From Glycomyces sambucus (GTDB taxonomy: Bacteria; Actinomycetota; Actinomycetes; Mycobacteriales; Micromonosporaceae): 64,000 bases of DNA. The stretch spans positions 124,001-188,000 of the forward strand of contig NZ_FNGF01000002.1 of the NCBI RefSeq assembly GCF_900102815.1, read 5' to 3'. A program made the translations under genes and the position numbers. Shown here piece after piece: positions 7,870 to 63,604 of this stretch. The notes beneath the pieces are model-generated. The model saw nothing but the letters and a program-made list of their open reading frames with translations. It did no database searches and was not told where the DNA came from. How positions within the stretch are numbered: the first letter of the stretch is position 1; each line of letters opens with the position of its first letter.

Positions 7870-7905
7870 AGTGATATGTGACGCGTGATGCGTGACGTGC
7901 CAGTG
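7870..7905. repeat. iterated palindrome copy a (degenerate)
   Basis: Reads CAGTGATATGTGACGCG followed by TGATGCGTGACGTGCC. It has the CAGTG flank and TATGTGAC core of the family, with a damaged right half. Intergenic. Confidence 0.55.
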
Positions 7906-7967
7906 CCCGCCGAGGCGCTGATCGACGCGCGGTCGGCGCCGGAGCGGCGTGTCAGCGCCTGAGAGGA

Positions 7968-7988
7968 CAGTGGCATGTCACATGCCAC
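7968..7988. repeat. iterated palindrome copy b
   Basis: CAGTGGCATGTCACATGCC plus AC: a near-perfect palindrome around TGTCACA. It sits 10 nt beyond the stop codon of the GntR gene. Confidence 0.75.
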
Positions 7989-7998
7989 CCAAGCTGCG

Positions 7999-8685
7999 TC
8001 AGGGCTGAGCCCATTTGCCGCGCACATGGCTCAGGTGCAGCTCCATGACGTTGCGCGTCGCCTTCGGGTCGCGGGTGAGGAGGCATTCGAGGAGTTCCAG
8101 GTGCTCCACCGCCGACTCCTCCAGCTCGCCGAGCTCCAGCAGCGCCGTCAGCCCGTACAGGCGCGAGCGCAGCCGCAGGTTCCGAACCGTCTCGACCAGG
8201 GTCCCGTTGCCCGACAAGGACAGCAGTGCCAGATGGAACCGCATGTCGGCTTCCACATACGCGAGCAGGTCCTCCTCGGATGCCGCGTCGACGATCGCCT
8301 GGGCGAGCGGGCGCAGCGCCTCGATCGCCTCCGGGTCCGCCGTCTCCGCGAGCGCCACCACCGTGGGGATCTCGATGAGTTCCCGCAGCCGCGTGTACTC
8401 GTCGAGCCGGTCCTCCGAGACCGTGGTGACCCGGAACCCCTTGTTGGGCACCGGTTCCAGCAGCTCCTCCTTGACCAGATCGAGCATGGCCTCGCGGACG
8501 GGCGTGGCGGAGACGCCGAACTGCTCGGCGAGCGCCGGGACCGAGTAGACCCGGCCCGGGGCGAGCTGCCCGGCGATGATGGCGGCGCGCAGGGCCTCGC
8601 CGACGCGCTCCCGGTAGCTGGCGCGGCGGCCGTCCAGTTCGGGCAGGGTCATCGGCGTGTCCGGCCGGGCGACTCGGGCGGGCAT
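7999..8685 (-). CDS. GntR family transcriptional regulator (FadR/FCD type)
   Basis: A 228-aa regulator. The winged helix occupies about residues 26-85 (YSVPALAEQFGVSATPVREAM is the helix-turn-helix). The C-terminal FCD-type helical domain contains ADMRFHLALL, whose Asp/His residues usually bind a metal. The ATG follows GAGGAG. FadR-type regulators respond to organic acids, sugar acids or acyl-CoA. Copies of the iterated palindrome flank the gene on both sides (7968-7988 and 8696-8720), the second within its promoter region. Target genes are not evident. Confidence 0.87.
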   Translation of the reverse strand: MPARVARPDTPMTLPELDGRRASYRERVGEALRAAIIAGQLAPGRVYSVPALAEQFGVSATPVREAMLDLVKEELLEPVPNKGFRVTTVSEDRLDEYTRLRELIEIPTVVALAETADPEAIEALRPLAQAIVDAASEEDLLAYVEADMRFHLALLSLSGNGTLVETVRNLRLRSRLYGLTALLELGELEESAVEHLELLECLLTRDPKATRNVMELHLSHVRGKWAQP

Positions 8686-8695
8686 CGTTGCTCCT

Positions 8696-8720
8696 CAGTG
8701 CTATGTGACATGGCGGTCAC
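8696..8720. repeat. iterated palindrome copy c, in the GntR promoter region
   Basis: CAGTGCTATGTGACATGG then CGGTCAC. The left half and core match the family consensus. Located 11 nt upstream of the GntR start codon, where it could act as an operator. Confidence 0.65.
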
Positions 8721-8750
8721 CCAGTATGAGGCCCGGCCCCGACGGCCGTC

Positions 8751-9464
8751 CTATCGCACCGAGCCGATCAGTCGCAGGTAGGCGCTGAGCTGCGCGGCCG
8801 CGTCGAGCATGGCCAGGCCCCGGCCCCGCAGGCGCCGGCCCCAGTCGTCGAGGGACGCCGCGAGCGCGTCGGTGCCGCCCGCGGTGCGCACCTGCTGCAC
8901 GACCGTCGCGATGTGCTCCAGCGGGTACCCGCCGCGCCGCAGCAGGTGGGCGAGTTCGGCGTCGCGCACGTCGGCCGCCGCGAACCGCCGGTAGCCGGTG
9001 GCCCGATCGCGCTCGGGCGCGAGGATCCCGGCCTCCTCCCAGTTCCGCAGCGTCGCCGGGGTGACCCGCAGCCGGTACGCGAGTTCGCCGACGGTGAAGG
9101 GCGTGAACGGCTTCGCCGCCTCCGCCGCGGGCCCGGCGGTGAGCCGGCCGACCGCGGCCCGCACCGACTCGAGCGTCGCCCGGTCCCGCAGCAGCTGCTC
9201 GTGCCCGCGGTCGACCACCATCAGGACCTCGTCGACACTGCCCTCCCCGGCCGCGTGCATGACCTCGCCCGCGACGGCGTGCCCGTACGCGCGCACCAAA
9301 GCCAGGAACGCGCGCAGCGCCGCCGCGTGCACCTCCGTGTAGACCCGGTACCCGCTCGCGGTGCGCTCGGCCACCGGCAGGTACCCGTCGCGCTCGTAGT
9401 TGCGCACCGCCTGGGCCGACAGGCCGTGCTCCCGCGCCAGGTCGGCGGGCCGAAGTCGCATCAT
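8751..9464 (-). CDS. MerR family regulator with two HTH domains (TioE-like)
   Basis: A 237-aa protein carrying two MerR-type helix-turn-helix units: residues about 3-70 (LREHGLSAQAVRNYERDGYLP-like core) and about 122-190 (LAYRLRVTPATLRNWEEAGILAPERD). A helical linker lies between. The start is placed at the tandem ATG-ATG at 9464; longer starts would run into the promoter repeat. Double-MerR proteins are known in actinomycetes, for example beside thiocoraline genes. The gene is divergent from an erythromycin-esterase-like gene with a large inverted repeat between, suggesting direct control of that gene. Confidence 0.82.
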   Translation of the reverse strand: MMRLRPADLAREHGLSAQAVRNYERDGYLPVAERTASGYRVYTEVHAAALRAFLALVRAYGHAVAGEVMHAAGEGSVDEVLMVVDRGHEQLLRDRATLESVRAAVGRLTAGPAAEAAKPFTPFTVGELAYRLRVTPATLRNWEEAGILAPERDRATGYRRFAAADVRDAELAHLLRRGGYPLEHIATVVQQVRTAGGTDALAASLDDWGRRLRGRGLAMLDAAAQLSAYLRLIGSVR

Positions 9465-9467
9465 GGT

Positions 9468-9516
9468 TTGAGACTTTACCTCACCGATCCGAGAGCAGAC
9501 CTGCTCCAAGTCTCAA
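9468..9516. promoter_or_regulatory. candidate operator for the double-MerR regulator
   Basis: TTGAGACTT at 9468-9476 and AAGTCTCAA at 9508-9516 are perfect inverted 9-mers, 31 bp apart, filling the divergent promoter region. The wide spacing could suit a protein with two DNA-binding domains; this is inference. Confidence 0.6.
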
Positions 9517-9544
9517 CGGTTCTTTCAACGATACGTTTCAGACC

Positions 9545-10573
9545 ATGCAACTCGACGATCTCGTGAACGACACCCATGAACTGGTCGGCGCCGGCGAGGC
9601 CGACCACCGCGAACCCGCCTTCCAAGAGGCCCGCAACGCCCTCTTCGCCCGCCTCGCCGACCGCGGGTTCCGCTCCTTCGCCCTGGAGACCGACCGGGCC
9701 GCCGCCTTCACTGTGGACGACTACGTGCGCGAGGGCACCGGCACCCTGGACGCCGCCATGGACGACGGCTTCTCGCACGGCTTCGGCGCCTTCGACGGCA
9801 ACCGGCGCCTGGTCGAATGGATGCGCGACTACAACCGGGACCGGGAGCCCGCCGACCGCCTCGCCTTCCACGGCATCGACGGCCCGTTCGAGTTCACCGC
9901 CCCCAGCCCCCGCGCCGCCCTCGAACACGTCCGCGACCACCTCGGCCTCGACCTCGACATCGCCTCCCTCGCAGGCGAGGACGAGCGCTGGAGCCGCACC
10001 GAGGCCGTCACCGACCCCGCCGCCTCACCCGGGGACACCCCCGAGGCCCGCGAACTCGGCGTGATCGCCGACCGGCTGCTCGCGGCCGTCCGCGACGCAC
10101 CGCCCGCCGCCCGGTCGCGGGCGGCGCACCACCGCGCGCTGGCCCACGCCCTCACCGCGCGCGGGCTGCTGCGCTACCACCGGCAGGCCGCGCAGCCCCT
10201 CGCCGAGGCCGAGCGCTGGAGCCGCCTCTCCGGCCTGCGGGACGCGCTCATGGCCGAGCACCTGCGAGCGATCCGCGACCAGGAGGCCGACCGGGGTCCG
10301 ACGCTCGTGGCCGGGCACAACATTCACTTGCAGCCCACCGAGAGCCGCTTGGAGATGGCGGGCATGAACCTCACCTGGACCGGCACCGGCGCCCTCATGG
10401 CGGCGCTGCTCGGCCCCAAGTACCTGTTCATCGCCGGGAGCCTCGGCCCCGCCGGGCCGGGCGACCACGGCGGCGCCGACGCGGTGCTCGTCGCCGGGGA
10501 CGAACCCGCACTGGTCCCCGTCTCCGGCGGCACTCGCGACCGCGCCAGCGGGTCCGAGCCCGTCAAGGAGTGA
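9545..10573 (+). CDS. erythromycin esterase family protein
   Basis: A 342-aa protein of the Ere superfamily. The N-terminal pattern HELVGAGEADHREPAFQEARNALF matches the GExxH...E region that holds the catalytic His/Glu, and GHNIHL near residue 258 matches the second conserved His region. Some family members hydrolyse the macrolide lactone; most chromosomal actinomycete members have unknown substrates, so resistance is not proven. Regulation probably runs through the adjacent MerR protein. Ends in a strong convergent terminator. Confidence 0.8.
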   Translation: MQLDDLVNDTHELVGAGEADHREPAFQEARNALFARLADRGFRSFALETDRAAAFTVDDYVREGTGTLDAAMDDGFSHGFGAFDGNRRLVEWMRDYNRDREPADRLAFHGIDGPFEFTAPSPRAALEHVRDHLGLDLDIASLAGEDERWSRTEAVTDPAASPGDTPEARELGVIADRLLAAVRDAPPAARSRAAHHRALAHALTARGLLRYHRQAAQPLAEAERWSRLSGLRDALMAEHLRAIRDQEADRGPTLVAGHNIHLQPTESRLEMAGMNLTWTGTGALMAALLGPKYLFIAGSLGPAGPGDHGGADAVLVAGDEPALVPVSGGTRDRASGSEPVKE

Positions 10574-10580
10574 ACGCGAA

Positions 10581-10610
10581 GGGCGGGAACGGCCCGAGCC
10601 GTTCCCGCCC
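10581..10610. terminator. bidirectional hairpin terminator
   Basis: GGGCGGGAACGGC and GCCGTTCCCGCCC form a perfect 13-bp stem with a CCGA loop between two convergent genes. Confidence 0.8.
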
Positions 10611-10618
10611 AGCGGATC

Positions 10619-12685
10619 TCAAGCGGACGCGTCCGCCTTCGCCTCGCGGCGGTCCGCCTCGTCGAAGGACTCCTGCTCGGCGATGTCCCGCGCCAGGTGC
10701 GCGACCGAGCGGTTGAACACCTCGCGGTCCTGCGGGTCGGCGAGGCTCCAGTCGTCCAGGTGCCGGTCGAGCCAGCGCTTCCAGGCCGTCACGAACAGCT
10801 CGAACTCGGCCCGCCCGCGCGGCGTCAGGCGCAACCGCCCGGCGTCGACGGCGAGGTAGCCCTCCCGGACCGCCTGCACGAACACCGGTTGCAGCACCTG
10901 CGGTGGCAGCCGGTGCGCCGCCGCGATCTTCACCAAGGTCGCCTCGGCCCCGGCGGCCTGCCGCATGTAGACCTGCCGCAGCGCCCAGGACCCGGCCCGG
11001 TCGAGGGCGCTCGCGCCCGCCGCCGACTCGTACACCTCGGTGTAGACGGTGCGCCGCTCGCGCTGCATGAGGTCGGCGACCATCCGCGCGAGGCGCTCCT
11101 CGGACGGCGACGGGTCGGGGGCCGCGAAGCCCTCGCCCATGTCGCCCGCGCGGCCGCGGGCCGCGTCGTGCAGCGGCCGCTCCTGGAGGAACCACGCGAC
11201 GAGGAACCCGAGGATCGCCACGGGGACGGTCCAGAAGAACACGAAGTTGATGGAGTCGGCGTAGGCGTTCACGATGGGCGCGATGACATTCTCGGGCAGC
11301 TCGTGCAGCGCCGCGGGGCTCGCCACCGCGGCCGGGTCGACGCCCGCCTCGGCGTACGCGGCCGCCAGCAGCGGCGTCGAGTGGTTCACGAACAGGGTCC
11401 CGAAGATCGCGGTGCCGAACGTCGAGCCGACGGTGCGGAAGAACGTCACGCCCGAGGTCGCGGCGCCCATCTGCGCGTACGGGACCGTGTTCTGGACGGC
11501 GATGGTGAGCACCTGCATCGCCAGGCCCAGCCCGAGTCCGAACACGAGCATGTACAGCGACTCCAGCCACACGCTCGTCGCCCTGTCCATGGTGGACATC
11601 AGGTAGAGGCCGAGGGCCATAACGCCGGTGCCCGCGACCGGGAACAGCTTGTACCTGCCGGTGCGGCTGACCACCGACCCCGACAGGATCGAGGTGGTGA
11701 GCATCCCGACGACCATCGGCAGCGTCCGGTACCCCGAGACCGTGGCCGACACGCCGTCGACGTACTGGAGGTAGGTCGGCAGGTACGTCATCGCCCCGAG
11801 CATCGCGAACCCGACGATGAAGCTGAGGATCGAGGACACGGTGAACACCGGGTTCCTGAACAGCCACATGGGCAGGATCGGCTCCGGGGCGCGGATCTCG
11901 ACGAGCACGAACACGACCAGCGCCGCGACGGCCCCGGCGAACATGCCGAGGATCGTCGCCGAGTCCCACGCGTAGTCGTCGCCGCCCCACTCCAGCGCCA
12001 GGATGAGCAGCGAGGTGCCGACCGCGACGAAGATGAGCCCCCAGTAGTCGATGATCGGGCGCACCGCCGAGCGCACGCGCGGCACCGTCGCGGCGGCCAT
12101 CGCGATCATGACCACTGCGATCGGGACGTTCACGTAGAAGCACCACCGCCACGACAGGTGGTCGGTGAACAGGCCGCCGAGCGTCGGCCCGAGCACCGTG
12201 GTCACGCCGAACACCGCGCCCATGGCGCCCTGGTACTTGCCGCGCTCGCGCAGCGGGATGACGTCGGCGATGAGCGCCATCGCGGTGACCATGAGGCCGC
12301 CGGCGCCCAGCCCCTGCACCGCGCGGGCGACGATGAGGAACACCATGTCGTCGCTGAACCCGGCCAGCGCCGACCCGCCGACGAACACGACCGCGCTGAT
12401 CTGGAAGATCGACTTGCGCCCGAACATGTCGCCGAACTTGCCGACGACCGCCGACGCGATCGCCTCCGCGAGCAGGTAGGACGTGACGACCCATGCCATG
12501 TGCCCGGCCCCGCCGAGGTCGGCGACGATCGTCGGCAGCGCCGTCGACACGATCGTCTGGTCCAGCGCCGCCATGAGCATCCCGAGGAGGATCGTGACGA
12601 ACACGAGGTTCCGGCGGGACCTGCTCAGGACCGGCGGGGCGGCCTCCGCGCCGGCCGGGCGCTCGGCGGTGTCGACAGTGCTCAT
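10619..12685 (-). CDS. DHA2-type MFS drug efflux transporter with C-terminal winged-helix extension
   Basis: A 688-aa membrane protein. The first ~500 residues are a 14-helix EmrB/QacA-like major facilitator: ALDQTIVSTALPTI is DHA2 motif D1, and GKFGDMFGRKSIF is the loop 2-3 motif A. Proton-driven export of drugs or hydrophobic compounds is expected. About residues 515-688 are soluble and look like a MarR-type winged helix (VKIAAAHRLPPQVLQPVFVQAVREGYL, then LRLTPRGRAEFE). The start is set at MSTVDTAERP. It is divergent from the antiporter gene, 95 bp apart. Confidence 0.88.
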   Translation of the reverse strand: MSTVDTAERPAGAEAAPPVLSRSRRNLVFVTILLGMLMAALDQTIVSTALPTIVADLGGAGHMAWVVTSYLLAEAIASAVVGKFGDMFGRKSIFQISAVVFVGGSALAGFSDDMVFLIVARAVQGLGAGGLMVTAMALIADVIPLRERGKYQGAMGAVFGVTTVLGPTLGGLFTDHLSWRWCFYVNVPIAVVMIAMAAATVPRVRSAVRPIIDYWGLIFVAVGTSLLILALEWGGDDYAWDSATILGMFAGAVAALVVFVLVEIRAPEPILPMWLFRNPVFTVSSILSFIVGFAMLGAMTYLPTYLQYVDGVSATVSGYRTLPMVVGMLTTSILSGSVVSRTGRYKLFPVAGTGVMALGLYLMSTMDRATSVWLESLYMLVFGLGLGLAMQVLTIAVQNTVPYAQMGAATSGVTFFRTVGSTFGTAIFGTLFVNHSTPLLAAAYAEAGVDPAAVASPAALHELPENVIAPIVNAYADSINFVFFWTVPVAILGFLVAWFLQERPLHDAARGRAGDMGEGFAAPDPSPSEERLARMVADLMQRERRTVYTEVYESAAGASALDRAGSWALRQVYMRQAAGAEATLVKIAAAHRLPPQVLQPVFVQAVREGYLAVDAGRLRLTPRGRAEFELFVTAWKRWLDRHLDDWSLADPQDREVFNRSVAHLARDIAEQESFDEADRREAKADASA

Positions 12686-14367: not shown

Positions 14368-14371
14368 ACCC

Positions 14372-14447
14372 GGGTGCCATGTGACATGTCACGTACTACC
14401 CGACCTGCGGGCCCCCGGGTTCCACCCTGCCGCGGGGGTACGACAAT
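14372..14447 (-). repeat. composite repeat R1 (promoter-like module, GGGGGCCC hairpin, palindrome copy d)
   Basis: On the minus strand it reads ATTGTCGTAC-N8-CAGGGT, then CCCGGGGGCCCGC, then GTACGTGACATGTCACAT. ATGTGACATGTCAC at 14379-14392 is the exact palindrome core. It starts 5 nt after the antiporter stop and would fire antisense into it. Confidence 0.75.
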
Positions 14448-29578: not shown

Positions 29579-30553
29579 GTGGCCGTCTCGACCGAGGCCG
29601 CCGCGCCCGACGCGGCGGCGGGTGCCGGGGGACGCGCTCCCCGGCCCCGCCGCCGCACGGGCGGCTGGCGGACCGCACTCACCTTCTGGTACTTCGTGGG
29701 GCCCTTCCTCATCGGGCTCCTCGTCTTCACGTACATCCCGGTGGTCTGGAGCGCCTACCTGTCGTTCTTCGACGCGCGCAACACCGTCACGCCCCTGCCC
29801 GAGGACTTCGTGGGCCTGGGCAACTACGCGCGGATGCTTCAGGACGCCGCATTCACCGACAGCCTGGTGACGTTCACCGTGTTCGCGGCCTTCGTCGTGC
29901 CGCTGACCTTCGCCTGCTCGCTCGGGCTGGCGCTGCTGCTCAACCGGGTGCGACTGATGCGGGCGTTCTTCCGGTCGGTGTTCTTCCTGCCGTTCTCGTG
30001 CTCCTATGTGGTGGCGTCGCTGGTGTGGAAGATGTCGATCTTCAACGGGGTGCGGTACGGGATGGCGAACTCGGTGCTCGACCTGTTCGGCATCGAGGAC
30101 GTGCCGTGGCTGTTCGACCCGAGCCCGCCGTGGTACTGGCTGGTCATCGTGTCGCTGCGCCTGTGGATCCAGTGCGGCTTCTACATGATCCTGTTCATCG
30201 CCGCGCTCCAGCAGATCCCCGAGCACCTGTACGAGGCCGCCTATGTGGACGGTGCGAAGCCGGGGAGGCAGACGTTCTGGCACATCACGCTCCCGCAGCT
30301 GCGGGCCACCTCGGTGGCGGTGCTCATGCTCATCCTCATCGCCGCGTACCAGGCGTTCGACGAGTTCTACAACCTCATCGGGAACCAGGCGTACGCCCGG
30401 CCGCCGCTGATGTACCTGTACACGACCGCCCTCGGCACGCAGCAGGACCTGGGCCGCGGCTCGGCCGGCGCGCTCATCCTGGCGCTCATCATCGCGATCG
30501 TGACGGTCCTCCAGGGCAGGTTCCTCGGATTCGGCAACGCGGAGGAGAAGTAG
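29579..30553 (+). CDS. sugar ABC transporter permease (MalF/UgpA type)
   Basis: A 324-aa membrane protein with six predicted helices. The EAA loop is EAAYVDGAKPGRQTFWHITLP. A GTG start with CGGAGG lies 11 nt after the binding-protein stop. It pairs with the next permease. The basic, Pro/Arg-rich N-terminus precedes the first helix. Confidence 0.9.
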   Translation: MAVSTEAAAPDAAAGAGGRAPRPRRRTGGWRTALTFWYFVGPFLIGLLVFTYIPVVWSAYLSFFDARNTVTPLPEDFVGLGNYARMLQDAAFTDSLVTFTVFAAFVVPLTFACSLGLALLLNRVRLMRAFFRSVFFLPFSCSYVVASLVWKMSIFNGVRYGMANSVLDLFGIEDVPWLFDPSPPWYWLVIVSLRLWIQCGFYMILFIAALQQIPEHLYEAAYVDGAKPGRQTFWHITLPQLRATSVAVLMLILIAAYQAFDEFYNLIGNQAYARPPLMYLYTTALGTQQDLGRGSAGALILALIIAIVTVLQGRFLGFGNAEEK

Positions 30554-30573
30554 CGCCATGTCACATACCACTG
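30554..30573. repeat. iterated palindrome copy e, at a start codon
   Basis: GCGCCATGTCACATACCACT; the reverse strand reads AGTGGTATGTGACATGG. The ATG of the second permease is part of the repeat, giving the N-terminus MSHTT. Confidence 0.7.
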
Positions 30574-32070: not shown

Positions 32071-32146
32071 CAGTGCCGTGTGACATGTGATGTACTACCG
32101 GCATCACGGGCCCCCCGTCGCAACCCTGCCCCAGGGGTACGACAGT
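32071..32146 (-). repeat. composite repeat R2 (with palindrome copy f)
   Basis: On the minus strand: ACTGTCGTAC-N8-CAGGGT, then CGGGGGGCCCGTGAT, then TAGTACATCACATGTCACAC. It lies 55 nt after the DUF4234 stop and upstream of apt; the promoter-like module faces away from apt. Confidence 0.8.
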
Positions 32147-32235: not shown

Positions 32236-32751
32236 GTGGACCTGACCGAATACGTGCCCGTCGTTCCCGACTTCCCCGAACCCGGGGTCGGCTTCCGCGA
32301 CATCACGCCGCTGCTCGCGGCCCCCGACGCGTTCCGCGCCTCGATCGACCGCCTCCAGGAGGCCGTCGAGGCGTACCCGTACGACTCGATCGCCGCGTTC
32401 GACGCGCGCGGGTTCCTCTGGGCCGCGCCGCTCGCCGACCGCACCGGGAAGCCGCTCCTGCCGATCCGCAAGGCCGGGAAACTGCCCCGCGAGGCCGCCG
32501 TCGAGACCTACCGCGGCGAGTACGCCGAGGTCCGCGTCGAACTCCACGCCGACGCCGTCAAGGACGGTGACCGGGTACTCCTCGTCGACGACGTTATCGC
32601 CACCGGCGAGTCCATGGCCGCAGGCGTGCGCCTCGTCGAGGGCCTCGGCGGCACCGTCGCCGCCTGCGCCGCCCTCCTGGAGATCGCCTCCCTCTCCGGC
32701 CGCGACCGCCTTGACGGCTACCCGATCGTCTCCCTGCTCGGCAAGCTCTAG
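32236..32751 (+). CDS. apt: adenine phosphoribosyltransferase
   Basis: A 171-aa type I phosphoribosyltransferase. FPEPGVGFRDITPLL is the Apt N-terminal signature; the PRPP loop VLLVDDVIATGES is near residues 115-127. It converts adenine plus PRPP to AMP. The GTG start is 7 nt after a TACCCT -10 box with no ribosome-binding site, so it is probably leaderless. In many actinobacteria apt lies next to relA and secDF; here it stands alone between two composite repeats. Confidence 0.92.
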   Translation: MDLTEYVPVVPDFPEPGVGFRDITPLLAAPDAFRASIDRLQEAVEAYPYDSIAAFDARGFLWAAPLADRTGKPLLPIRKAGKLPREAAVETYRGEYAEVRVELHADAVKDGDRVLLVDDVIATGESMAAGVRLVEGLGGTVAACAALLEIASLSGRDRLDGYPIVSLLGKL

Positions 32752-32833
<82 letters not shown>

Positions 32834-32887
32834 GCCGCAAGCGGCGGCGTCTCCCGCGATCGCGGTGTCCCCAGGCCCGAGAACCGA

Positions 32888-32919: not shown

Positions 32920-32991
32920 GTCGTACCCCTAGGGCAGGGTTGCAGCGGGGGGCCCGTGATACCGGTGGTACATCACATGTCACACAGCACC
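32918..32991 (+). repeat. composite repeat R3 (with palindrome copy g)
   Basis: TTGTCGTAC-N8-CAGGGT, then CGGGGGGCCCGTGAT, then GTACATCACATGTCACACAG. Nearly identical to R4. It fills the gap between the convergent apt and aldolase genes. Confidence 0.85.
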
Positions 32992-39357: not shown

Positions 39358-39428
39358 ACGAGGCCGCCCACGGCGCCGGCGGAAAGGTGCGGGGCGAGGA
39401 CTCGCCGGGCACCGGGCCCGCTACAAGG

Positions 39429-39501
39429 GTGCTGTGTGACATGTGATGTACCACTGGTATCACGGGCCCCCCGCTGCAACCCTGCCCCGCGGGTACGACA
39501 A
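39429..39501 (-). repeat. composite repeat R4 (with palindrome copy h)
   Basis: On the minus strand: CTTGTCGTAC-N8-CAGGGT, GCGGGGGGCCCGTGAT, then GTACATCACATGTCACACAG. It differs from R3 at only a few positions. Located between convergent GNAT and response-regulator genes. Confidence 0.85.
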
Positions 39502-43157: not shown

Positions 43158-43461
43158 GCCCACGACGCTACGGCCCGCGGCCCGGTCGTTCATCGGTTTC
43201 GGGAGCGATCTTCCGGGACGCGAGTGGTACCCGGGTACTACGACTCCAGGAGAAGAAAGCGCTGTCGCGACTCCTCCTCGCATTCGCCCGCAGCGGCGTC
43301 GCCCCAGCAAGGCGCCTACGCCTGCGCCGCCGCGCCCGGAAGACGGTGCCATATGACATGTCACATGGCACCCGACCGGTGGGCCCCCGGGTCCACCCTG
43401 ACACACGGGACCGACAGGGCCTTCCGGGGCGGATTCGGGTCCGCGGCCGGGGGCCTGCCGG
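43158..43461 (-). promoter_or_regulatory. 304-bp intergenic region with promoter and composite repeat
   Basis: Next to the ATPase start is the -10 box TAGCGT. Further up is the palindrome GGTACCCGGGTAC (43227-43239), then a GA-rich stretch and composite repeat R5. No gene is evident. Confidence 0.55.
43345..43417 (-). repeat. composite repeat R5 (with palindrome copy i)
   Basis: On the minus strand: CTGTCGGTC-N8-CAGGGT, CCCGGGGGCCCACC, then GTGCCATGTGACATGTCA and TATGGCACC. The palindrome here is the most symmetric: GGTGCCATATGACATG mirrored. It lies 45 nt after the DNA polymerase stop codon and points at the ABC ATPase gene. Confidence 0.75.
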
Positions 43462-47532: not shown

Positions 47533-48482
47533 GAGGCGCTCCTGATGCGGCGGATGAACAGGTAGTTGAGGAGGGCGACGAGGACGATGACGGCGAACAT
47601 CGTCCAGGCCACGGCCGAGGCGTACCCGAACTCGAAGCCGCGGTTGAAGCCGTGCTCGTACAGGTAGAGCGTGAGCGTCTGGAACTGGCGGGAGGCGCCG
47701 CCGGTGACGCCGTTCTGCCCGCCGCCGCCGAACAGCTGCGGCTCGGCGAAGATCTGGAGCCCGTAGATCGTCGAGACGATCACCGTGAACACGATGGTGG
47801 GCCGGATCATCGGCACCGTCACGTGGAACAGCTGCTGCATGCGGGAGGCGCCGTCGAGGTGCGCGGCCTCGTACACCTCGCGCGGCACGGCCTGCATCGC
47901 GGCGAGGTAGATGAGGGCGTTGTAGCCGGTCCACTTCCACGCCACCATGACCGCGATGGCGATATGTGACGTGGCACTGCCGGCCTGCCAGTCGATGCGG
48001 CCCGCGCCCAGGGACTCCAGGACCCAGTTGATGAGCCCGAAGTCGCGGCCGAACAGCTGGCTGAAGATCACCGCGACCGCGACCACGGAGGCGACGTTCG
48101 GCAGGAGCATCCCCATGCGCCAGAACGTCTGCGCGCGCAGCCGCATGGTGAGCAGGTGCGCCAGCAGGAGCGCGGCCAGCAGCTGCGGCACCGTCGCCAG
48201 CAGGAGGATCGACATGGTGTTGCCGAGGGCGTTCCAGAAGTACGGGTCGGTCAGCAGCGTCGTGTAGTTCCCGAACCCGACGAACACGTGGTCGTCGGAG
48301 AGCAGGCTCCACTCGTGGGTCGACACCCACGCGGTGAACGCCAGCGGGAACAGCCCGAACACGGCGAACAGCACGAAGAACGGGGCGATGTACAGGTACG
48401 GGGAGGCTTTCAGGTCCAGGCGGTAGCGCAGGAGGCCCGCGGGGCCGCCTCGCGCGCCGGTCCCCTTGGCGGCGATGGTCAT
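47529..48482 (-). CDS. ABC transporter permease, MalF type (beta-glucan importer)
   Basis: A 317-aa six-helix permease. EAA loop: YEAAHLDGASRMQQLFHVTVP. Residues ~168-175 (GSATSHIA) are encoded by a copy of the iterated palindrome, in a periplasmic loop before the helix IAIAVMVAWKW. It lies 244 nt after the binding-protein gene; that gap holds a hairpin and a 15-bp repeat. Confidence 0.9.
   Translation of the reverse strand: MTIAAKGTGARGGPAGLLRYRLDLKASPYLYIAPFFVLFAVFGLFPLAFTAWVSTHEWSLLSDDHVFVGFGNYTTLLTDPYFWNALGNTMSILLLATVPQLLAALLLAHLLTMRLRAQTFWRMGMLLPNVASVVAVAVIFSQLFGRDFGLINWVLESLGAGRIDWQAGSATSHIAIAVMVAWKWTGYNALIYLAAMQAVPREVYEAAHLDGASRMQQLFHVTVPMIRPTIVFTVIVSTIYGLQIFAEPQLFGGGGQNGVTGGASRQFQTLTLYLYEHGFNRGFEFGYASAVAWTMFAVIVLVALLNYLFIRRIRSAS
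47961..47980. repeat. iterated palindrome copy j, inside the MalF-type gene
   Basis: GATATGTGACGTGGCACTGC; the minus strand reads GCAGTGCCACGTCACATATC. Flank and core match the family, the second core half is shortened. In frame, encoding SATSHI. Confidence 0.65.
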
Positions 48483-50060: not shown

Positions 50061-50101
50061 GGGCGGAGGCGATCGCCGCCCTTCGAGTCGCTCAATCAAG
50101 C

Positions 50102-50127
50102 AATGTGTGACATGTGACGTGCCACTG
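50102..50127. repeat. iterated palindrome copy k
   Basis: AATGTGTGACATGTGACG, then TGCCACTG; the reverse strand reads CAGTGGCACGTCACATG. It sits between the GH16 stop codon and the importer promoter. Confidence 0.8.
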
Positions 50128-53274: not shown

Positions 53275-55791
53275 CTAGCCGCCGCGCAGCCGCCGGTTCG
53301 TCCACGCGGTCGGCGCGGCCGACGCCGGGTCCTCGGGCCACGGGTGCTTCGGATACCGCCCGCGCATCTCCTTGCGCACCTGCAGGTACGACCCCTGCCA
53401 GAACGACGCGAGGTCGGAGGTCACCGCGAGCGGCCGCCCGGCCGGGTCGAGCAGGTGCGCCCGCACCTGGACGCCGCCGATCCGCGGGATCGCGGCGGCG
53501 CCGAAGAACAACTGGAGCTTCATCGACACCACCGGCCACCCGGTCGCGTAGTCGACCGCGGTCTCGGAGCCGTTGTCGAGGCGGAGCCGGACCGGCGCGG
53601 TCCGCTCCAGGTCCTCCGACCACGGGACCAGGTTCCTGAGCGCGGCGCCCGCCTCGATCCGCTCCAGGTCCCGGCGGCGCCGGGCGCGGCTCCACCACGG
53701 TTCGAGCCAGTCCGGGGAGGCCAGCAGCGCGGCGTCGGACACGTCCGGCCACTGGTCGCCGATCTCCCGGTGGCAGAACGCCATCCGCTCGCGCGTCCGC
53801 CGTGCCGCATCGGTCCACTTGAGCACGTCCAGGCCCTCCTCGCGGAGCCCGTCGAGGAGCGCCGCGCCGACGAGGGCCGGGTCGGGGTCCCGGAGCGGTT
53901 CGGACGCGTCCTCGATCGCCCCGACCATGCGCACCGACCGGGCGGCGACGTCGCGCCGCTCCCGGTCCCAGGCGACGCGCTCCTCGCGCCGCTCGCCCGC
54001 GATCTCGCGCGCGAGCCCGCCGTCGATCGGCACGCCCGCCCTGACCTGGGCCGCGGCCCGGCCGGGGTTCCGGGAGGCGTCGGCGATCGCGAGCCATTCG
54101 CTGCCCGCCAGCGGGGAGCCCTCGGCGCAGACCGCGCCGGTGCCGCCGACGGTGAGCCACTGGCCGCCGCTGCGCTTGGCGATCCGCTCGGGGAACGCGA
54201 GCGCGACCACGGTGGCCGCGGCCTCGTCGTCGCCCACGTGCCGGTCGGTCGCGGGGACCGTGCGGGACAGGCGCTTCACCTCCCGCTCCCACTGCCGGTC
54301 CCGGCTCGCGCGGAGCTGGCGCCATTGTGCGAGCAGGTCGTCGCCGCGGCCGCGCTTGTCGAGCCCGAGCAGGGCCGCGACCTCGGCGGCCTTCACGGAG
54401 CCGACGCGCGCGGCGCCGTCCACGAGCGCCCGCGCCAGCCGCGGATGCAGCCCGGCCCTGGCGAGGACGCGGCCGCGGTCGGTCGCCGCCCCATCGTCGT
54501 CGATGGCGCCCAAGGCTTGCAAGGTCGCCTCGGCGGCTTCGACCGCGCCCGCCGGGGGCGGGCCGGGCAGCGCGAGCTCGGCGACGGGGGTGCCCCAGCA
54601 GGCCGCCTGGAGGCGGAACGCGGTGAGGTCGGCGGCGGCCACGTCGGGCACGGGCTGGGCGGCGCGGCGCAGGTGCTCGGCCTCGCTCCAGCAGCGCCAC
54701 ACCGCACCGGGTCCCTCGCGCCCGGCGCGGCCCGCGCGCTGGTCGGCCGCGGCCCGGGAGGCGGGCGTGGTCGTCAGGCCCGGTAGCCCCCGGGCGTGGT
54801 CGACGACGGGGCGCCGCGCGAGCCCGGCGTCCACGACGATCCGCACCCCCGGCACGGTCAGGCTCGACTCGGCGATGGCGGTGGCGAGGACGACGCGGCG
54901 CCGGTCCCCGGCGCGCATCGCGCGGTCCTGCTCGGCCGGCGACACCGATCCGTGCAACTGATATATATCGGCATCAAGGTGTCTGAGTTGGTCGGCCACG
55001 CGCCTGATCTCGGCGGCACCGGGGAGGAAGACCAGCACGTCGCCGTCGTCCGCGTCCAGGGCCCGGTCGACGATATGTGACACATGACCGAGGAACCTGG
55101 GGTCGACCCGCAGCCCGTCGGGCGGGTCGAGGCGTTCGCGGGGCGGGACCCAGTGCATGGCGACGGGGTGGCGCATCGGCTCGGAGGCGACGGCGGGCGC
55201 GGGCCCCGCGTCCGCGGCGAGGAGGCCGGTCCACAGTGCGACGTCGGCGGTGGCGGAGGCGGCGACGAGGCCGAGGTCGGGCCGCAGGACCTGCCGGGAC
55301 TCGATGAGGAAGGCGCAGGCGGTGTCGGTCTCCAGGTGCCGCTCGTGGCACTCGTCCAGGACCACGAGATCGACGCCGGGCAGTTCGGGGTCGGCCAGGA
55401 GCCGGTTGAGCAGCACCCCGGTCGTGACGACCTCGACCCTGGTGGCGGCGGACCGGCGCGTCTCGCCCCGGATCTGGAACCCGACCCGCTCGCCGGGCTT
55501 CTCGCCGAGGATAGCCGCCATGCGGGCGGCGGCCGCGCGCGTGGCGAGCCGCCGCGGCTCGGCCACGAGGACCCGCCGCTGTGACATATCACGTGTCACA
55601 TATCGCGACCCGTCCGCGGCGCCCGCGTCGATGAGCCCGGCGAGGGCGAGCGGCGCGAGCGTGGTCTTCCCGGTGCCGGGCGGTGCGGCGAGGACCGCGG
55701 TCCCGGTGCGCGCCACGGCGTCGAGCAGGGCGGGCAGCGACTCCCGGATCGGCAGGTCGGGCAGCGCGGGCGGTTGCGGCATGCCGACCAT
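53275..55791 (-). CDS. hrpB: ATP-dependent helicase HrpB
   Basis: An 838-aa DEAH-box helicase of the HrpB group. Walker A PPGTGKTT (about 37-44), DECHER near 150, SATA, then QRAGRAGREGPG, and the C-terminal HrpB region with QLFFG...RAHLLDPAGRPLAVTSDLASFW. The role of HrpB is RNA-related but poorly defined. Two copies of the iterated palindrome lie in the gene and encode residues ~64-71 (YVTRDMSQ) and ~235-239 (HVSHI). The first lengthens the loop between Walker A and motif Ia. Confidence 0.92.
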   Translation of the reverse strand: MVGMPQPPALPDLPIRESLPALLDAVARTGTAVLAAPPGTGKTTLAPLALAGLIDAGAADGSRYVTRDMSQRRVLVAEPRRLATRAAAARMAAILGEKPGERVGFQIRGETRRSAATRVEVVTTGVLLNRLLADPELPGVDLVVLDECHERHLETDTACAFLIESRQVLRPDLGLVAASATADVALWTGLLAADAGPAPAVASEPMRHPVAMHWVPPRERLDPPDGLRVDPRFLGHVSHIVDRALDADDGDVLVFLPGAAEIRRVADQLRHLDADIYQLHGSVSPAEQDRAMRAGDRRRVVLATAIAESSLTVPGVRIVVDAGLARRPVVDHARGLPGLTTTPASRAAADQRAGRAGREGPGAVWRCWSEAEHLRRAAQPVPDVAAADLTAFRLQAACWGTPVAELALPGPPPAGAVEAAEATLQALGAIDDDGAATDRGRVLARAGLHPRLARALVDGAARVGSVKAAEVAALLGLDKRGRGDDLLAQWRQLRASRDRQWEREVKRLSRTVPATDRHVGDDEAAATVVALAFPERIAKRSGGQWLTVGGTGAVCAEGSPLAGSEWLAIADASRNPGRAAAQVRAGVPIDGGLAREIAGERREERVAWDRERRDVAARSVRMVGAIEDASEPLRDPDPALVGAALLDGLREEGLDVLKWTDAARRTRERMAFCHREIGDQWPDVSDAALLASPDWLEPWWSRARRRRDLERIEAGAALRNLVPWSEDLERTAPVRLRLDNGSETAVDYATGWPVVSMKLQLFFGAAAIPRIGGVQVRAHLLDPAGRPLAVTSDLASFWQGSYLQVRKEMRGRYPKHPWPEDPASAAPTAWTNRRLRGG
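55072..55088. repeat. iterated palindrome copy l, inside hrpB
   Basis: CGATATGTGACACATGAC. Core matches on the left, shortened right. In frame it encodes HVSHI of the helicase. Confidence 0.6.
55580..55603. repeat. iterated palindrome copy m, inside hrpB
   Basis: TGTGACATATCACGTGTC, then ACATAT. It contains two overlapping half palindromes and encodes YVTRDMSQ in the loop after Walker A. Confidence 0.7.
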
Positions 55792-58271: not shown

Positions 58272-59300
58272 ATGCGGTACCTCCTTGGCGACTACACCAC
58301 TGAAGGCGGCCCCGGTCTGGTCGCGGCCGGACCCGACGGGCTCGGCGAGCCGGCGGCGGTGGTGAACCCGTCGTGGGTCCACGTCGGGCCCGAAGCGGTC
58401 TACACCCTGACCGAGACCGAGCCGGGTTTCGCCGGTGCCTGGCACCTGAGCGAGGACTTCGCGCTCGACCGCGCCGGGCAGGGCCGCTCGACCGGCGGCA
58501 ACAACCCGTGCCACGCCACGGTGGACCCGTCGGGGCGCTGGCTGCTGGTCGCGAACTACGGCTCCGGTGAGGGCGCGGGCGCCTCGGTCGCGTCGCTGCC
58601 GATCGGGGAGGACGGCACGCTCGGCGAGGCCGCCGACGTCTTCCGGCTCTCCGGTTCGGGCCCGGTGCCCGACCGCCAGTCCGGCCCCCACGCCCACCAA
58701 GTGGTATGTCACATGTCACGCGTGCTGGTGGTGGACCTGGGCTCGGACCGCATCCACGCGCTCGACCTCGGCGAGGACGGCACCCTGACCCCGGCCGCGA
58801 CCACGCAGCTCGAGCCCGGGTTCGGGCCGCGCCACCTCGCGTTCGTGGGCGACCGGGCGGTGATCGCGGGGGAGCTCGCGAACGCGTTCGCGGTCGGCTC
58901 CTATGACGACCGCTCCGCCACGTTCTCTTTCGGGCCCGCGGTGCCCCTGCCCACGGGTGAGGCCGTGGACTTCGCGGCGATGCCCGACATCGGCCTCGAC
59001 GAGGACGCCCCCGGGTCGCTGCCGGCCGCGGTGGTCCCCGACCCCGAGCGCGGCCTCGTCTACATCACCGTGCGCGGCCCCGACCAGCTCGCCGTGGTCG
59101 ACCCGGCGACGAGCACGCTGGTCCGGTCGGTCCCGGTCGGCGCGGCGTGGCCGCGCGACGCGGTGCTCACCGGCGACGGCACGCTCCTGGTCGCGTGCCA
59201 GCACGGCGGGGTGGTGACGCGGGTCGACCCGACCGGCGAGCGGCCGCCCGTCACCGAGTGGACCGTGCCCGGTGTGACGTGCGTGGCGCCTCTCACATAG
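58272..59300 (+). CDS. lactonase family protein (beta-propeller, 6-phosphogluconolactonase-like)
   Basis: A 342-aa seven-bladed propeller of the YbhE/Pgl type: NPCHATVDPSGRWLLVANYGSG, GPHAHQVV and GPRHLAF are conserved. It would hydrolyse 6-phosphogluconolactone or a related lactone. Residues 146-149 (CHMS) come from an iterated palindrome that replaces the usual TDPGGR-like turn after HAHQVV. The ATG is 7 nt after TAGGAT (58259-58264), so it is probably leaderless. Confidence 0.87.
   Translation: MRYLLGDYTTEGGPGLVAAGPDGLGEPAAVVNPSWVHVGPEAVYTLTETEPGFAGAWHLSEDFALDRAGQGRSTGGNNPCHATVDPSGRWLLVANYGSGEGAGASVASLPIGEDGTLGEAADVFRLSGSGPVPDRQSGPHAHQVVCHMSRVLVVDLGSDRIHALDLGEDGTLTPAATTQLEPGFGPRHLAFVGDRAVIAGELANAFAVGSYDDRSATFSFGPAVPLPTGEAVDFAAMPDIGLDEDAPGSLPAAVVPDPERGLVYITVRGPDQLAVVDPATSTLVRSVPVGAAWPRDAVLTGDGTLLVACQHGGVVTRVDPTGERPPVTEWTVPGVTCVAPLT
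58701..58720. repeat. iterated palindrome copy n, inside the lactonase gene
   Basis: GTGGTATGTCACATGTCACG: a near-consensus half plus core, in frame, encoding VVCHMSR. Confidence 0.75.
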
Positions 59301-59339
59301 CCAAACTTGCGTGATCTGCAAAATTTCATCCTGGGCATC

Positions 59340-59368: not shown

Positions 59369-59374
59369 TACGTC

Positions 59375-60164: not shown

Positions 60165-62405
60165 GTGGCCACCTTCCTCTACCGCCTCGGCAGAGGGTCC
60201 TACCGACTGCGCTGGCTCGTCCTCGCCGTCTGGATCCTCGTCGTCGGCGGCGTCGGCGCCGCAGCCGCCACCCTCCAGCAGGAGACGAACCCCGAGTTCG
60301 TCCTCCCCGGCACCGAGTCCCAGGAGGCGTTCGACCTCCTCGAAGAACGCTTCCCGGAGATGGACGCCGACGGCGGGACCGCGCAGATCGTCATCGAGTC
60401 CGAAGACGGGCAGCCCCTCACCGCCGAGGCCAACGCCGCGGCCGTCGACGCGCTCGCCGCCGTCATGGCCGACTCCCCGCAGATCGCCGGCGTCACCAGT
60501 CCCCTCGCGACCGGCCCGAACGGCGAACCGGTCGGCATGCTCTCGGCCGAGGACCAGACCATCGGCGTCATGCAGGTCGCCTACGCTGAGCCCTCCATGG
60601 AACTCGACGAGTCCACCGTCGACTACCTCGAGGACGCCGTCGCGGACGCCGAGGACCAGGGCATCCGCGTCGAAGTCGGCGGCGACGTCCTCCAGGCCAT
60701 GCCCGAGACCAGCGCCACCGAGCTCATCGGCATCGGCGTCGCCCTCGTCGTCCTCATCATCACCTTCGGCGCGCTCCTCGCCGCCGGACTCCCGATCATC
60801 ACCGCCGTCCTCGGCGTCATGCTCACCACCGCGGGCATCCTCGCCGCCACGTCCTTCATGAACGTCAGCGAGTCCACCGGCACCCTCGCCTCGATGATCG
60901 GCCTCGCCGTCGGCATCGACTACGCGCTGTTCATCCTCTCCCGCTACCGCTCCGAACTCGCCAAGGACGGCCGCGTCGAGGACAAGCGGGCCCGCGCCGA
61001 CGCCATGGGCCGCGCCGTCGGCACCGCCGGCTCGGCCGTGTTCTTCGCCGGCCTCACCGTCATCGTCGCCCTCCTGGGCCTGTCGGTCGTGAACATCCCG
61101 TTCCTCACCGAGATGGCCGTGGCCGCCGCCGTCACCGTCGCGATCGCCGTGGTCATCGCCGTGACGCTCCTGCCCGCCTTCGCCGGGTTCGCCGGCAAGC
61201 GCATCTTCACCGGCCGCCAGCGCCGCCGCATCGCCTCGGGCGTCCACGGCAGCAAGCCCAACGGCGGCAAGCGCTGGGCCGGGTTCGTCACCCGCCACCC
61301 GATCCTCGTGGCGCTCGTCGGCATCGTCGGCCTCGGCGCGCTCGCCTACCCGGCCACCGACCTCGAACTCGGTCTCCCCGACGCCAGCTCCTACGGCGAG
61401 GAGACCACCCAGCGGCAGGCGTACGAGCTCATCAGCGACGGCTTCGGCGAGGGCTTCAACGGGCAGCTCATGCTCGTCGGCGACCTCCACGACGGCGTCG
61501 ACGCGGCCACCGCCGCGGCCGACGTGACCGCCGCGCTCGGCGACGTCGACGGCATCGCCGTGACCGGCCAGGCCGTCCCCAACGAGGCCGGCGACACGCT
61601 CCTGGTCACCGTCATCCCCGAGACCGCGCCCGCGGCCGAGGCGACCAACCAGCTCGTCCACGACATCCGCGGCGTCCTCGCCGACGACGCCGACGCGGAC
61701 TGGGCCGTCACCGGCGCGACCGCGCTCAACATCGACATCTCCGACAACCTCAACGACGCGCTGCTGCCGTACATGCTCATCGTCGTCGGCCTCGCGGCGC
61801 TCATCCTGCTGCTGGTGTTCCGCTCGATCCTGGTGCCGGTCATGGCCACGCTCGGGTTCATGCTCAGCGTGTTCGCGGCCCTGGGCGCGCTCGTCGCGGT
61901 CTTCCAGTGGGGCTGGGGCGCCGAGCTGTTCAACGTCGACCAGCCGGGTCCGATCATGTCGATGATGCCGATCCTCATGATCGGCCTCGTCTTCGGCCTC
62001 GCGATGGACTACCAGATCTTCCTGGTCACGCGGGTCCGCGAGGCGTACGTGCACGGCGCCGACCCCAAGGCCGCGATCGTGGAGGGCTACGGCCACTCCT
62101 CGCGGGTCGTGGTCGCGGCGGCGCTCATCATGATCAGCGTGTTCGCGGCGTTCATCTTCAGCGCCGAGTCGCTCATCGCCTCGATGGGCTTCGCGCTGGC
62201 CGCGGCGGTCGTGTTCGACGCGTTCGTGGTCCGCATGGCGATCATCCCCGCGGTCATGGCCCTGGTGGGCCGGGGCGCGTGGTGGATCCCGCGGTGGCTG
62301 GACCGGATCCTGCCGAACGTCGACGTCGAAGGGGAGCGCCTGCAGCGGCACCTCGCCGCGGACGCCCCCGAGGACGAGCGCGAGCTCGTCGGAGCGACCA
62401 AGTAG
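60165..62405 (+). CDS. MMPL/RND family transporter
   Basis: A 746-aa membrane protein with about 12 helices in two MMPL halves: a first helix, extracytoplasmic loop (45-185), then SMIGLAVGIDYALFILSRYR with the Asp-Tyr proton relay, and in the second half GLVFGLAMDYQIFLVTRVRE. It is expected to export lipids, siderophores or drugs using the proton gradient. GTG start after TTGGAG. Paired with the TetR gene upstream. Confidence 0.93.
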   Translation: MATFLYRLGRGSYRLRWLVLAVWILVVGGVGAAAATLQQETNPEFVLPGTESQEAFDLLEERFPEMDADGGTAQIVIESEDGQPLTAEANAAAVDALAAVMADSPQIAGVTSPLATGPNGEPVGMLSAEDQTIGVMQVAYAEPSMELDESTVDYLEDAVADAEDQGIRVEVGGDVLQAMPETSATELIGIGVALVVLIITFGALLAAGLPIITAVLGVMLTTAGILAATSFMNVSESTGTLASMIGLAVGIDYALFILSRYRSELAKDGRVEDKRARADAMGRAVGTAGSAVFFAGLTVIVALLGLSVVNIPFLTEMAVAAAVTVAIAVVIAVTLLPAFAGFAGKRIFTGRQRRRIASGVHGSKPNGGKRWAGFVTRHPILVALVGIVGLGALAYPATDLELGLPDASSYGEETTQRQAYELISDGFGEGFNGQLMLVGDLHDGVDAATAAADVTAALGDVDGIAVTGQAVPNEAGDTLLVTVIPETAPAAEATNQLVHDIRGVLADDADADWAVTGATALNIDISDNLNDALLPYMLIVVGLAALILLLVFRSILVPVMATLGFMLSVFAALGALVAVFQWGWGAELFNVDQPGPIMSMMPILMIGLVFGLAMDYQIFLVTRVREAYVHGADPKAAIVEGYGHSSRVVVAAALIMISVFAAFIFSAESLIASMGFALAAAVVFDAFVVRMAIIPAVMALVGRGAWWIPRWLDRILPNVDVEGERLQRHLAADAPEDERELVGATK

Positions 62406-62418
62406 CCGAAGCCCCGAT

Positions 62419-62451
62419 GGGGACTCGGGCCGACCCCCGGCCCGGGTCCCC
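62419..62451 (+). terminator. hairpin terminator after MMPL gene
   Basis: GGGGACTCGGGCCG pairs with CGGCCCGGGTCCCC (one wobble, 14 bp, 5-nt loop), 13 nt after the stop codon. Confidence 0.7.
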
Positions 62452-62478
62452 GCGGGGGTTCGGTGAACGGGGGACCCC

Positions 62479-63537
62479 ATGGTCTTCTTCTGGGCGCTGC
62501 TGATCCTGATCGGCATGATCACCGCGGACTTCTTCGTCCCGATGCTCCCGAGCGCGACGCTGGTGACCGCCGCGGCGGGGCTCGTGCTGGGGAACCCGTG
62601 GCTGATCCTCGTGCTGCTCGTCGGGGCGGCGGGCTCGTCGTGGTTCGGCGAGTTCATGGGCTACAAGGTGTTCCGCGCGGTGCGGGCCGGGCTGCGGCGG
62701 CGCCCGACCGGCTTCGCCGCGCGGGTCGCGCAGCGGACGGTGGGCGGTGCGGTGCTGAAGCTCGAGAAGCTGCTCCAGGGCAGTGTCGAGCGGCATCCCT
62801 ACCGCACCACGATCGTCGCCCGCTTCCTTCCCGCCGGCCGCACCACACTCGCGTGGATCGCGGCCGGCGCCGGTCGTGTGCCGTACGGGCGGATGGCGGC
62901 GCTCGGCGGGGTGCTGTGGGCGGTGTACACGGTCAGCCTCGGCCTGCTCATCGCCTGGATCGCCGGTCCGGGCCTGCAGTCGCTGCTGGGGTCGGTGCTG
63001 ACGGTCCTGGCGGTCGGGTTCGTTTTGGGGTGGGTCGCCAAGCGCTGGCAGCGGAGCCAGGTCGGCGAGCACATCGACGAGGTCGATCCTGCGGAACCGC
63101 GGGCGATCGTCGCCGGTTCCGGCGCGGCGTCGGCCCTCGATGCCGATCTGGGGGAGTCGGGTGCGGCCGGCCTGCGCGCGGCCGGGCCGGGTGCCGCTGA
63201 TCGGAGCGCGGGAGAGTCGGGTGTTGATGGTCTGGGGGCCGCTGATCGGGGCGCGCTGGGCGCGGCCGAGCCGGGCAGGAGCGATCCTGGCAAGAGCGAT
63301 CGGGGCGCGGCCGCTTCGGCCCGCCGGATCGATCCGGGCCGATCCGCGCGGTTCACCGGGGCTTCGGGCTCCGGCGCCGCCTGGAACGCTGCCGATTCGA
63401 GCGGCGATCTCGACACTGGCAGCGGGTCGCTCCCGAGCGATCCCGCGGTGTGCCGCCCGCGACCGGGCGGCGCCGCCGAACCCGGTTTCGGCGCGGATTC
63501 GGGACCGGCGCAGGCGGCATTACCGGCGTACAAGTAG
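62479..63537 (+). CDS. DedA family (VTT domain) membrane protein with long low-complexity tail
   Basis: A 352-aa protein. Residues 1-205 are a DedA/VTT membrane domain (LPSATLVTAAAGLVLGNPW, then RFLPAGRTTLAWIAAGAGRVPYGRM), proposed to flip lipids or act in membrane homeostasis. Residues ~205-352 are an extra Ala/Gly/Asp/Ser-rich tail built from loose repeats (GAADRSAGESGVDGLGAADRG), unusual for DedA. The ATG follows GGGGGACC. Ends in an iterated palindrome. Confidence 0.85.
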   Translation: MVFFWALLILIGMITADFFVPMLPSATLVTAAAGLVLGNPWLILVLLVGAAGSSWFGEFMGYKVFRAVRAGLRRRPTGFAARVAQRTVGGAVLKLEKLLQGSVERHPYRTTIVARFLPAGRTTLAWIAAGAGRVPYGRMAALGGVLWAVYTVSLGLLIAWIAGPGLQSLLGSVLTVLAVGFVLGWVAKRWQRSQVGEHIDEVDPAEPRAIVAGSGAASALDADLGESGAAGLRAAGPGAADRSAGESGVDGLGAADRGALGAAEPGRSDPGKSDRGAAASARRIDPGRSARFTGASGSGAAWNAADSSGDLDTGSGSLPSDPAVCRPRPGGAAEPGFGADSGPAQAALPAYK

Positions 63538-63559
63538 CACATCACATGTCACACAGCAC
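63533..63559. repeat. iterated palindrome copy o
   Basis: AGTAGCACATCACATGTC, then ACACAGCAC. It overlaps the DedA stop codon and leads into the hairpin. Confidence 0.8.
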
Positions 63560-63587
63560 GGGCCCGTCCGGAATGGACGGGCCCGTG
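63557..63587. terminator. bidirectional hairpin between two palindromes
   Basis: CACGGGCCCGTCC-GGAAT-GGACGGGCCCGTG, 13-bp perfect stem, between the convergent DedA and pirin genes. Confidence 0.82.
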
Positions 63588-63604
63588 CCATGTCACACAC
63601 TACT
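63585..63604. repeat. iterated palindrome copy p
   Basis: GTGCCATGTCACACACTACT, half-palindrome on the far side of the hairpin, so that AGTAG...CTACT bracket the whole element. Confidence 0.7.

Follow-up and report, generated by a model that had tools for sequence, protein, structure and literature searches.

Heptad-array sites at gene ends around a HypR-like GntR/FCD regulator gene in Glycomyces

HIP1 and the REP/BIME elements are iterated near-palindromes that occur genome-wide. HypR of Streptomyces coelicolor represses the hydroxyproline operon, and its footprinted operator comprises TACAATGTCAC in its own promoter and TGC(A/C)ATGTCAC elsewhere (PMC6608401); three dimers of NanR bind the repeat (GGTATA)3 cooperatively (PMC8012715); and matS is a 13-bp site with 23 copies in 800 kb (PMC3330122). 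Judged by sequence, the boxes of the Glycomyces sites described here are the HypR operator box in its form given there. The box and the protein family were already known; of a conserved, gene-centred group of array sites at gene ends (hereafter the cloud) we found no description among open papers.

The window analysed is a stretch of 64,000 nucleotides (G000:C6:124001-188000) from a Glycomyces assembly of 5.60 Mb in 16 contigs, hereafter the source genome. An earlier note on this DNA had claimed about 16 copies of a palindrome with the core TSACATGTSA, in excess of chance. An iterated weight-matrix scan gave a match at every one of the 16 places listed there, with scores of 15.6-39.5 that are somewhat inflated, since the training sites of the matrix came from the same contig; throughout, some of the sites scored had also served to train the matrices, and the site thresholds were chosen by us. 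A score of 20 was exceeded by 12 of the 16 places, the weak four (15.6-19.3) being 8697, 30545, 47958 and 55069, and the top windows of five simulated 308-kb sequences (fourth-order Markov) scored 9.1-15.1. The excess was confirmed as well: the window holds eight exact copies of the core, where dinucleotide shuffles expect 0.04 and yielded one at most.

Genome-wide, 19 places in the 5.60 Mb carry the core, versus two for a reversed control pattern, and 11 of the 19 fall in the 141 kb of C6:46371-187551. When C6:1-308000 was scanned with the weight matrix, 30 places scoring at least 15 were found from C6:46362 to 193092, and elsewhere in that range a single place reached this level (15.4). At scores of at least 20, 22 sites fell in the eight 20-kb tiles that make up the cloud and none in 22 other tiles of the contig; these sites span about -86 to +61 kb relative to the gene of the regulator GntR-A. 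The corresponding counts were 24 sites in seven tiles near the gene versus one in six tiles farther out for genome G007, and 14 in six versus two in five for G008. The motif is real; it is regional rather than genome-wide, and palindromic in consensus only. Because the 19 core places are so few and clustered, the suggestions of a HIP1-type iterated palindrome and of a dispersed methylase target are unsupported, and tile counts joined the core counts in rejecting a HIP1-like genome-wide repeat. Among the readings suggested at the outset, a regulator or a chromosome-organising protein fits best, and the spacing indeed differs from that of the CRP site, as had been pointed out. The features of the window are listed below in window coordinates, with weight-matrix scores.

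7870-7897: site, score 29.0, convergent spacer downstream of GntR-A
7962-7989: site, 22.6, three-heptad form, same convergent spacer downstream of GntR-A
7999-8685, minus strand: GntR-A, 228-residue GntR/FCD (FadR-type) regulator, HypR-like (Pfam GntR and FCD)
8697-8724: weak site, 17.9, roughly 11 bp before the start of GntR-A; orthologous position occupied in 9 of 10 orthologues
14373-14400: site, 38.1, 6 bp past a Na/H-exchanger gene; also in orthologous spacers of G008, G007 and G002
30545-30572: weak site, 19.3, overlapping a start codon within a sugar-transporter operon
32072-32099: site, 36.1, tandem spacer, behind a GC hairpin resembling a terminator; also in G008, G007, G002 and G014
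32964-32991: site, 35.7, convergent spacer; also in G008, G007, G002 and G014, and weakly (17) in G018
39428-39455: site, 37.9, convergent spacer; also in G008, G007, G002 and G014
43345-43372: site, 39.5, tandem spacer; also in G008, G007, G002 and G014, not in G018, G013 and G003
47958-47985: weak match, 15.6, intragenic
50099-50126: site, 34.6, tandem spacer; also in G008, G007 and G002, not in G018, G013 and G003
55069-55096: weak match, 17.5, intragenic, HrpB-type helicase gene
55580-55607: match, 30.1, intragenic, HrpB-type helicase gene
58700-58727: match, 30.3, intragenic, lactonase-type gene
63533-63560: site, 34.4, 3' end of a gene, convergent spacer
63577-63604: site, 22.2, convergent spacer shared with the site at 63533

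Four of the 16 listed places are thus intragenic (47958, 55069, 55580 and 58700); in other genomes the lactonase-type gene also carries matches, weaker ones, partly shaped by coding. A second repeat, some 45 bp long (GGGCCCCC...ACCCTGN..GGGTACGACA), accompanies several sites at a fixed distance, with copies at window positions 14425, 32124, 32920 (minus strand) and 39480, a variant near 43345, and further copies on contig C11 near 38 kb and 318 kb. It is partly kept in orthologous spacers, and two C11 copies near 318 kb stand alone. A short tandem array of GCGAACC units lies at 32738-32847, in the convergent spacer adjoining the site at 32964. Local arrays of short-form sites were also seen: five sites 69-78 bp apart at C6:80496-80817 and four sites 50-57 bp apart at C12:186172-186363.

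The sites consist of abutting 7-bp boxes, the forms of 21, 28 and 35 bp representing three, four and five heptads. One inner heptad was counted in 37 sites, two in 41, three in 8, four in 1 and none in 1, and the oriented consensus over 28 columns is about NRGTGCCGYGTGACATGTGAYRTGCCACY minus its first base. The claim of a palindrome holds for the consensus, which is near-palindromic, and fails for the individual sites, whose arms do not covary and whose inner heptads mostly run in the same direction. Among 67 distinct sites scoring at least 26 in five genomes, 13 of 14 column pairs were at or below the shuffle mean. Pairing lay well under the shuffle at columns 5/24, 7/22, 8/21, 9/20 and 11/18 (the last pairing in 19 of the 67 sites versus a shuffled-arm mean of 33.5), and above it only at the central pair 14/15. 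Moreover, the two S bases on one strand were direct (GG or CC) in 47 of 68 sites, mirror-like in 20 and neither in 1. The lack of covariation and the direct-repeat heptads favour tandem protein binding and disfavour a hairpin; an RNA hairpin was rejected since the arms do not covary. No clear bias in the orientation of sites relative to genes was found (12 same and 7 opposite in tandem spacers; 9 and 7 in convergent ones). A ribbon-helix-helix reader of the Omega/MetJ type, to which the heptads had pointed, was dropped on the GntR profile match.

That match concerns the GntR-A gene, which sits within the cloud and whose product matches PF00392 and PF07729. Aligned to Thermotoga chains, GntR-A keeps a D-x3-H and two later histidines, presumably metal ligands. 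A protein search found orthologues (77-100% identity) in 10 of 22 Glycomyces genomes. Among the matches listed by the model searches, in which 150 of 196-1415 candidates per genome were scored, nine of the ten genomes with GntR-A were motif-rich, versus none of the 12 without it: the former had 9-39 matches, both strands counted, and the latter 0 or 2. The probability of such agreement by chance is about 2 in 100,000 if the genomes are treated as independent, which they are not. Nine of the ten orthologues are preceded, at a short distance from the start, by a site scoring 13.9-26.1. The exception is G017, whose orthologue, at 77% identity and with a racemase gene adjacent, has no upstream site and whose genome gave no listed match in the model search. 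Genome G018, without GntR-A, retains one site of 29.7. The exact sequence TRCMATGTSAC occurs nine times in C6:1-308000, always within listed sites, and, allowing one mismatch, in 15 of the 22 source-genome sites scoring at least 20, the other seven being without it. From the sequences we conclude that GntR-A very probably reads the sites; it is the predicted and well-supported binder in Glycomyces, and its output is what we infer below.

In order to place the sites relative to genes, genes were called with our own codon model in five Glycomyces genomes, and sites scoring at least 20 were counted. Convergent spacers contained 30 sites in 12.2 kb, tandem spacers 39 in 35.9 kb (31 of the 39 closer to a gene end) and divergent spacers only 4 in 17.3 kb; 13 sites fell in 471 kb of genes, and two more at tile edges. 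This is not the promoter placement expected of HypR-type sites, as most Glycomyces sites lie in convergent or tandem spacers. The neighbouring genes are mixed by Pfam (sugar transport, kinases, helicases, efflux and others), no pathway common to the window's genes was found by Pfam, and the neighbours of the sites share no one metabolic function, in agreement with the earlier note.

The positions of the sites are conserved between species. Where a spacer of the source genome has a site, so did 25 of 27 orthologous spacers (G008 9/11, G007 6/6, G002 6/6 and G014 4/4); where it has none, a site was found in 5 of 146 (G008 0/60, G007 3/44, G002 1/24 and G014 1/18), with the reservation that orthologous spacers are not independent of each other. 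In the genomes without GntR-A, in which the region is also syntenic, one of 12 orthologous spacers was occupied (G018 1/5, G013 0/5 and G003 0/2). Among the spacer alignments listed, some of which are poor, the site is kept while the flanks largely diverge.

The relatives of GntR-A were compared in a tree, which gave separate groups for GntR-A (83/99), for the paralogue GntR-B (100/100) and for two Streptomyces classes (72/71 and 99/95); because these groups are separate, GntR-A is counted as a relative of SCO6294 rather than as its established orthologue. A homologue at E 1e-60 or better was present in 48 of 61 Streptomyces genomes, many with the box upstream: a matrix match precedes the homologue in 10 of 16 members of the class of 65-69% identity, and ACATTGTACG does so in at least 8 of 13 members of the class of about 60%. 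Streptomyces genomes G054 and G048 have three sites each, all within about 6 kb of the gene and 16-89 nt before gene starts, and the G048 neighbours are, by Pfam, racemase, DHDPS, oxidoreductase, Fer2_4 and DAO. Streptomyces G050 has one clear site, and four control tiles gave one weak match.

In the source genome, GntR-B lies at C12:183900 (51% identity to GntR-A), the full-length proline racemase gene at C12:177764 is by GntR-B rather than GntR-A, and a site of 40.1 occupies a divergent spacer at C12:196027. The six genomes with GntR-B only (G004, G009, G011, G012, G015 and G021) have a single listed model site about 11 kb from GntR-B, and this site therefore looks like a conserved ordinary operator. 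GntR-B, at about 50% identity, may bind the same boxes as GntR-A. A full-length racemase gene lies beside GntR-A in G002, G005, G007, G014, G016 and G017, no more than about 6 kb from GntR-B in ten genomes including the source genome, and beside neither paralogue in G001, G006 and G010. According to this distribution, the cloud persists around GntR-A without an adjacent racemase in the source genome, G008 and G019; G006 likewise has a cloud without a racemase beside GntR-A, its racemase being on another contig.

It is important to mention the exceptions to this centring on the gene. Among the matches listed, strong sites of the source genome outside the cloud occur on C11 (five places), C12 and C15, and strong sites lie beyond the cloud at 417 kb in G008 and at -105 kb in G007. 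In G006, about 115 kb (contig C1, about 220-343 kb) separate genes whose distance in the source genome is 8 kb, and 40 kb sampled of this insert contained no gene of the source region and no site above 13.3. The core sites past the insert persist about 165-180 kb from the gene, if C1 and C27 adjoin, as we infer, so nearness to the gene is not strictly needed. Scanning named genomes for the pattern returned 11 stretches, ten from Glycomyces and one from Streptomyces blattellae. The S. blattellae arrays are spread over several contigs, some at gene ends and some intragenic or in a divergent spacer, the longest listed arrays being on contigs other than that of the closest homologue. Given the outside sites, the S. 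blattellae arrays and the far sites of G006, the cloud follows old core positions rather than a strict distance law. Long heptad runs were also observed in S. blattellae gene-end spacers (L121 near 10220-10290 and L122 near 9960-10030), and a viral scan for three abutting TGTSACA heptads returned two IMG/VR contigs of AT-rich DNA (L119 and L120).

Several other explanations of the cloud were weighed. GntR-A might be a promoter repressor and the sites its regulon, some of them at unseen antisense or internal promoters. We consider this unlikely: the box is a known promoter operator (PMC6608401), the Streptomyces G054 and G048 sites stand before gene starts beside the regulator, and the source-genome site at C12:196027 and a pair at C11:325.9 kb are in divergent spacers, but the scarcity of sites in divergent relative to convergent spacers of the five Glycomyces genomes, and the lack of a common pathway, speak against it. 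The earlier note had named confinement to the window, or operators of one regulon, as findings that would contradict its reading; the copies are indeed largely regional, and the operator of a single regulator family provides their building blocks, but ordinary operator places are not where most of them lie. We also regard as improbable that the sites are left over from local duplication, or act as a repressor sink, and are tolerated at gene ends as harmless there. Their avoidance of promoters and genes fits such tolerance, and some local arrays, such as the five short-form sites at C6:80496-80817, point the same way; however, positions kept in 25 of 27 orthologous spacers despite flank divergence, and mostly empty in genomes without GntR-A, do not.

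A terminus-domain system of the MatP/matS kind appears very unlikely. It would share a protein-read motif confined to one chromosomal region, and the GTSAC-type half-sites of the cloud are ones we take to resemble matS, but the correlated protein is of the GntR/FCD family and the cloud is centred on the GntR-A gene, not on the likely terminus. The position of the latter is tentative, as it rests on two tiles flanking dnaA on contig C14 (60-80 kb and 150-170 kb), where the GC skew appears inverted, positive before dnaA and negative after it. On C6 the sign of the skew flips around 330-450 kb, and none of the tiles sampled there contains a site. A search for dif gave no matches at up to three mismatches, and none in C6:1-308000 with looser patterns, which left the skew as the sole guide to the terminus. 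ParB was rejected as a reader: seven of the eight places with parS-like sequence are close to dnaA on C14, the eighth (one mismatch) being C6:91522. Finally, a hairpin, a terminator or a REP/BIME-like mobile palindrome acting at the RNA level would suit the 3'-end placement and the near-palindromic consensus, but it is extremely improbable with 13 of 14 column pairs showing no covariation above the shuffle and with presence following the gene of a DNA-binding protein; no Rfam match was found in the window.

The explanation that we prefer, and hold to be likely as a whole, is that the HypR-like GntR-A binds the arrays and that the sites at gene ends around its gene may insulate or organise the region. 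Each array, mostly three to five unspaced heptads with end caps, would be bound by GntR-A. Two adjoining heptads (TGCCA-TGTSAC) form one published HypR box, so that each array offers several overlapping boxes; GntR-A dimers would be expected to occupy these cooperatively, in the manner of NanR dimers on the NanR repeat operator. GntR-A would control its own gene via the site at its start, and the sites were presumably multiplied around the gene in this Glycomyces lineage and would now be held by selection at gene 3' ends. Bound GntR-A could act as a block between adjacent transcription units (insulator or roadblock) rather than as a promoter switch, and/or as a folding point of a domain of roughly 150 kb. 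It is quite probable that selection maintains the cloud for a role outside the control of promoters. Insulation or folding is judged the most likely role since the sites are found where genes converge, seldom occur at divergent promoters and keep their positions; whether insulation or architecture is the role, as opposed to something else, seems to us evenly balanced. More tentatively, and short of an even balance, we propose that a metabolic one-component repressor became a regional chromatin-like protein: its operator, turned into a multi-box array, would have reached gene ends up to about 85 kb from the gene, marking a lineage-specific domain, and the gene was kept though its former metabolic neighbours are gone from its side in this branch.

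If this is true, an everyday repressor can give rise to a system that organises or insulates DNA over a whole region. Possible living intermediates are promoter sites only (Streptomyces G054 and G048), the gene without a cloud (G017), a cloud with an adjacent racemase (G007 and G002) and a cloud without one (source genome). The locus offers a testable case of why the sites of a regulator gather near its own gene and what the bound protein does at gene ends.

Among known systems, HIP1 and REP/BIME resemble the Glycomyces sites as iterated near-palindromes, but the Glycomyces sites are regional and their arms do not covary. The MatP/matS Ter macrodomain is similar in that a protein reads a motif restricted to one region of the chromosome; the cloud differs in its protein family, in centring on the gene of the protein and in occurring in part of one genus only. 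NanR on (GGTATA)3 in Escherichia coli is likewise a GntR protein of the FCD type that binds short direct repeats in tandem, whereas its repeats are of 6 bp, form one operator and are bound cooperatively via an N-terminal extension. The closest comparison is HypR (SCO6294), to which GntR-A is likened indirectly, its nearest relatives being the Streptomyces class of 65-69% identity: both are GntR/FCD proteins with the box TGC(A/C)ATGTCAC and a site just upstream of their own gene, and relatives adjoin proline racemase and DHDPS genes. Whereas the published HypR sites are in promoters, Glycomyces has about 30 multi-heptad arrays, mostly in gene-end spacers around the gene.
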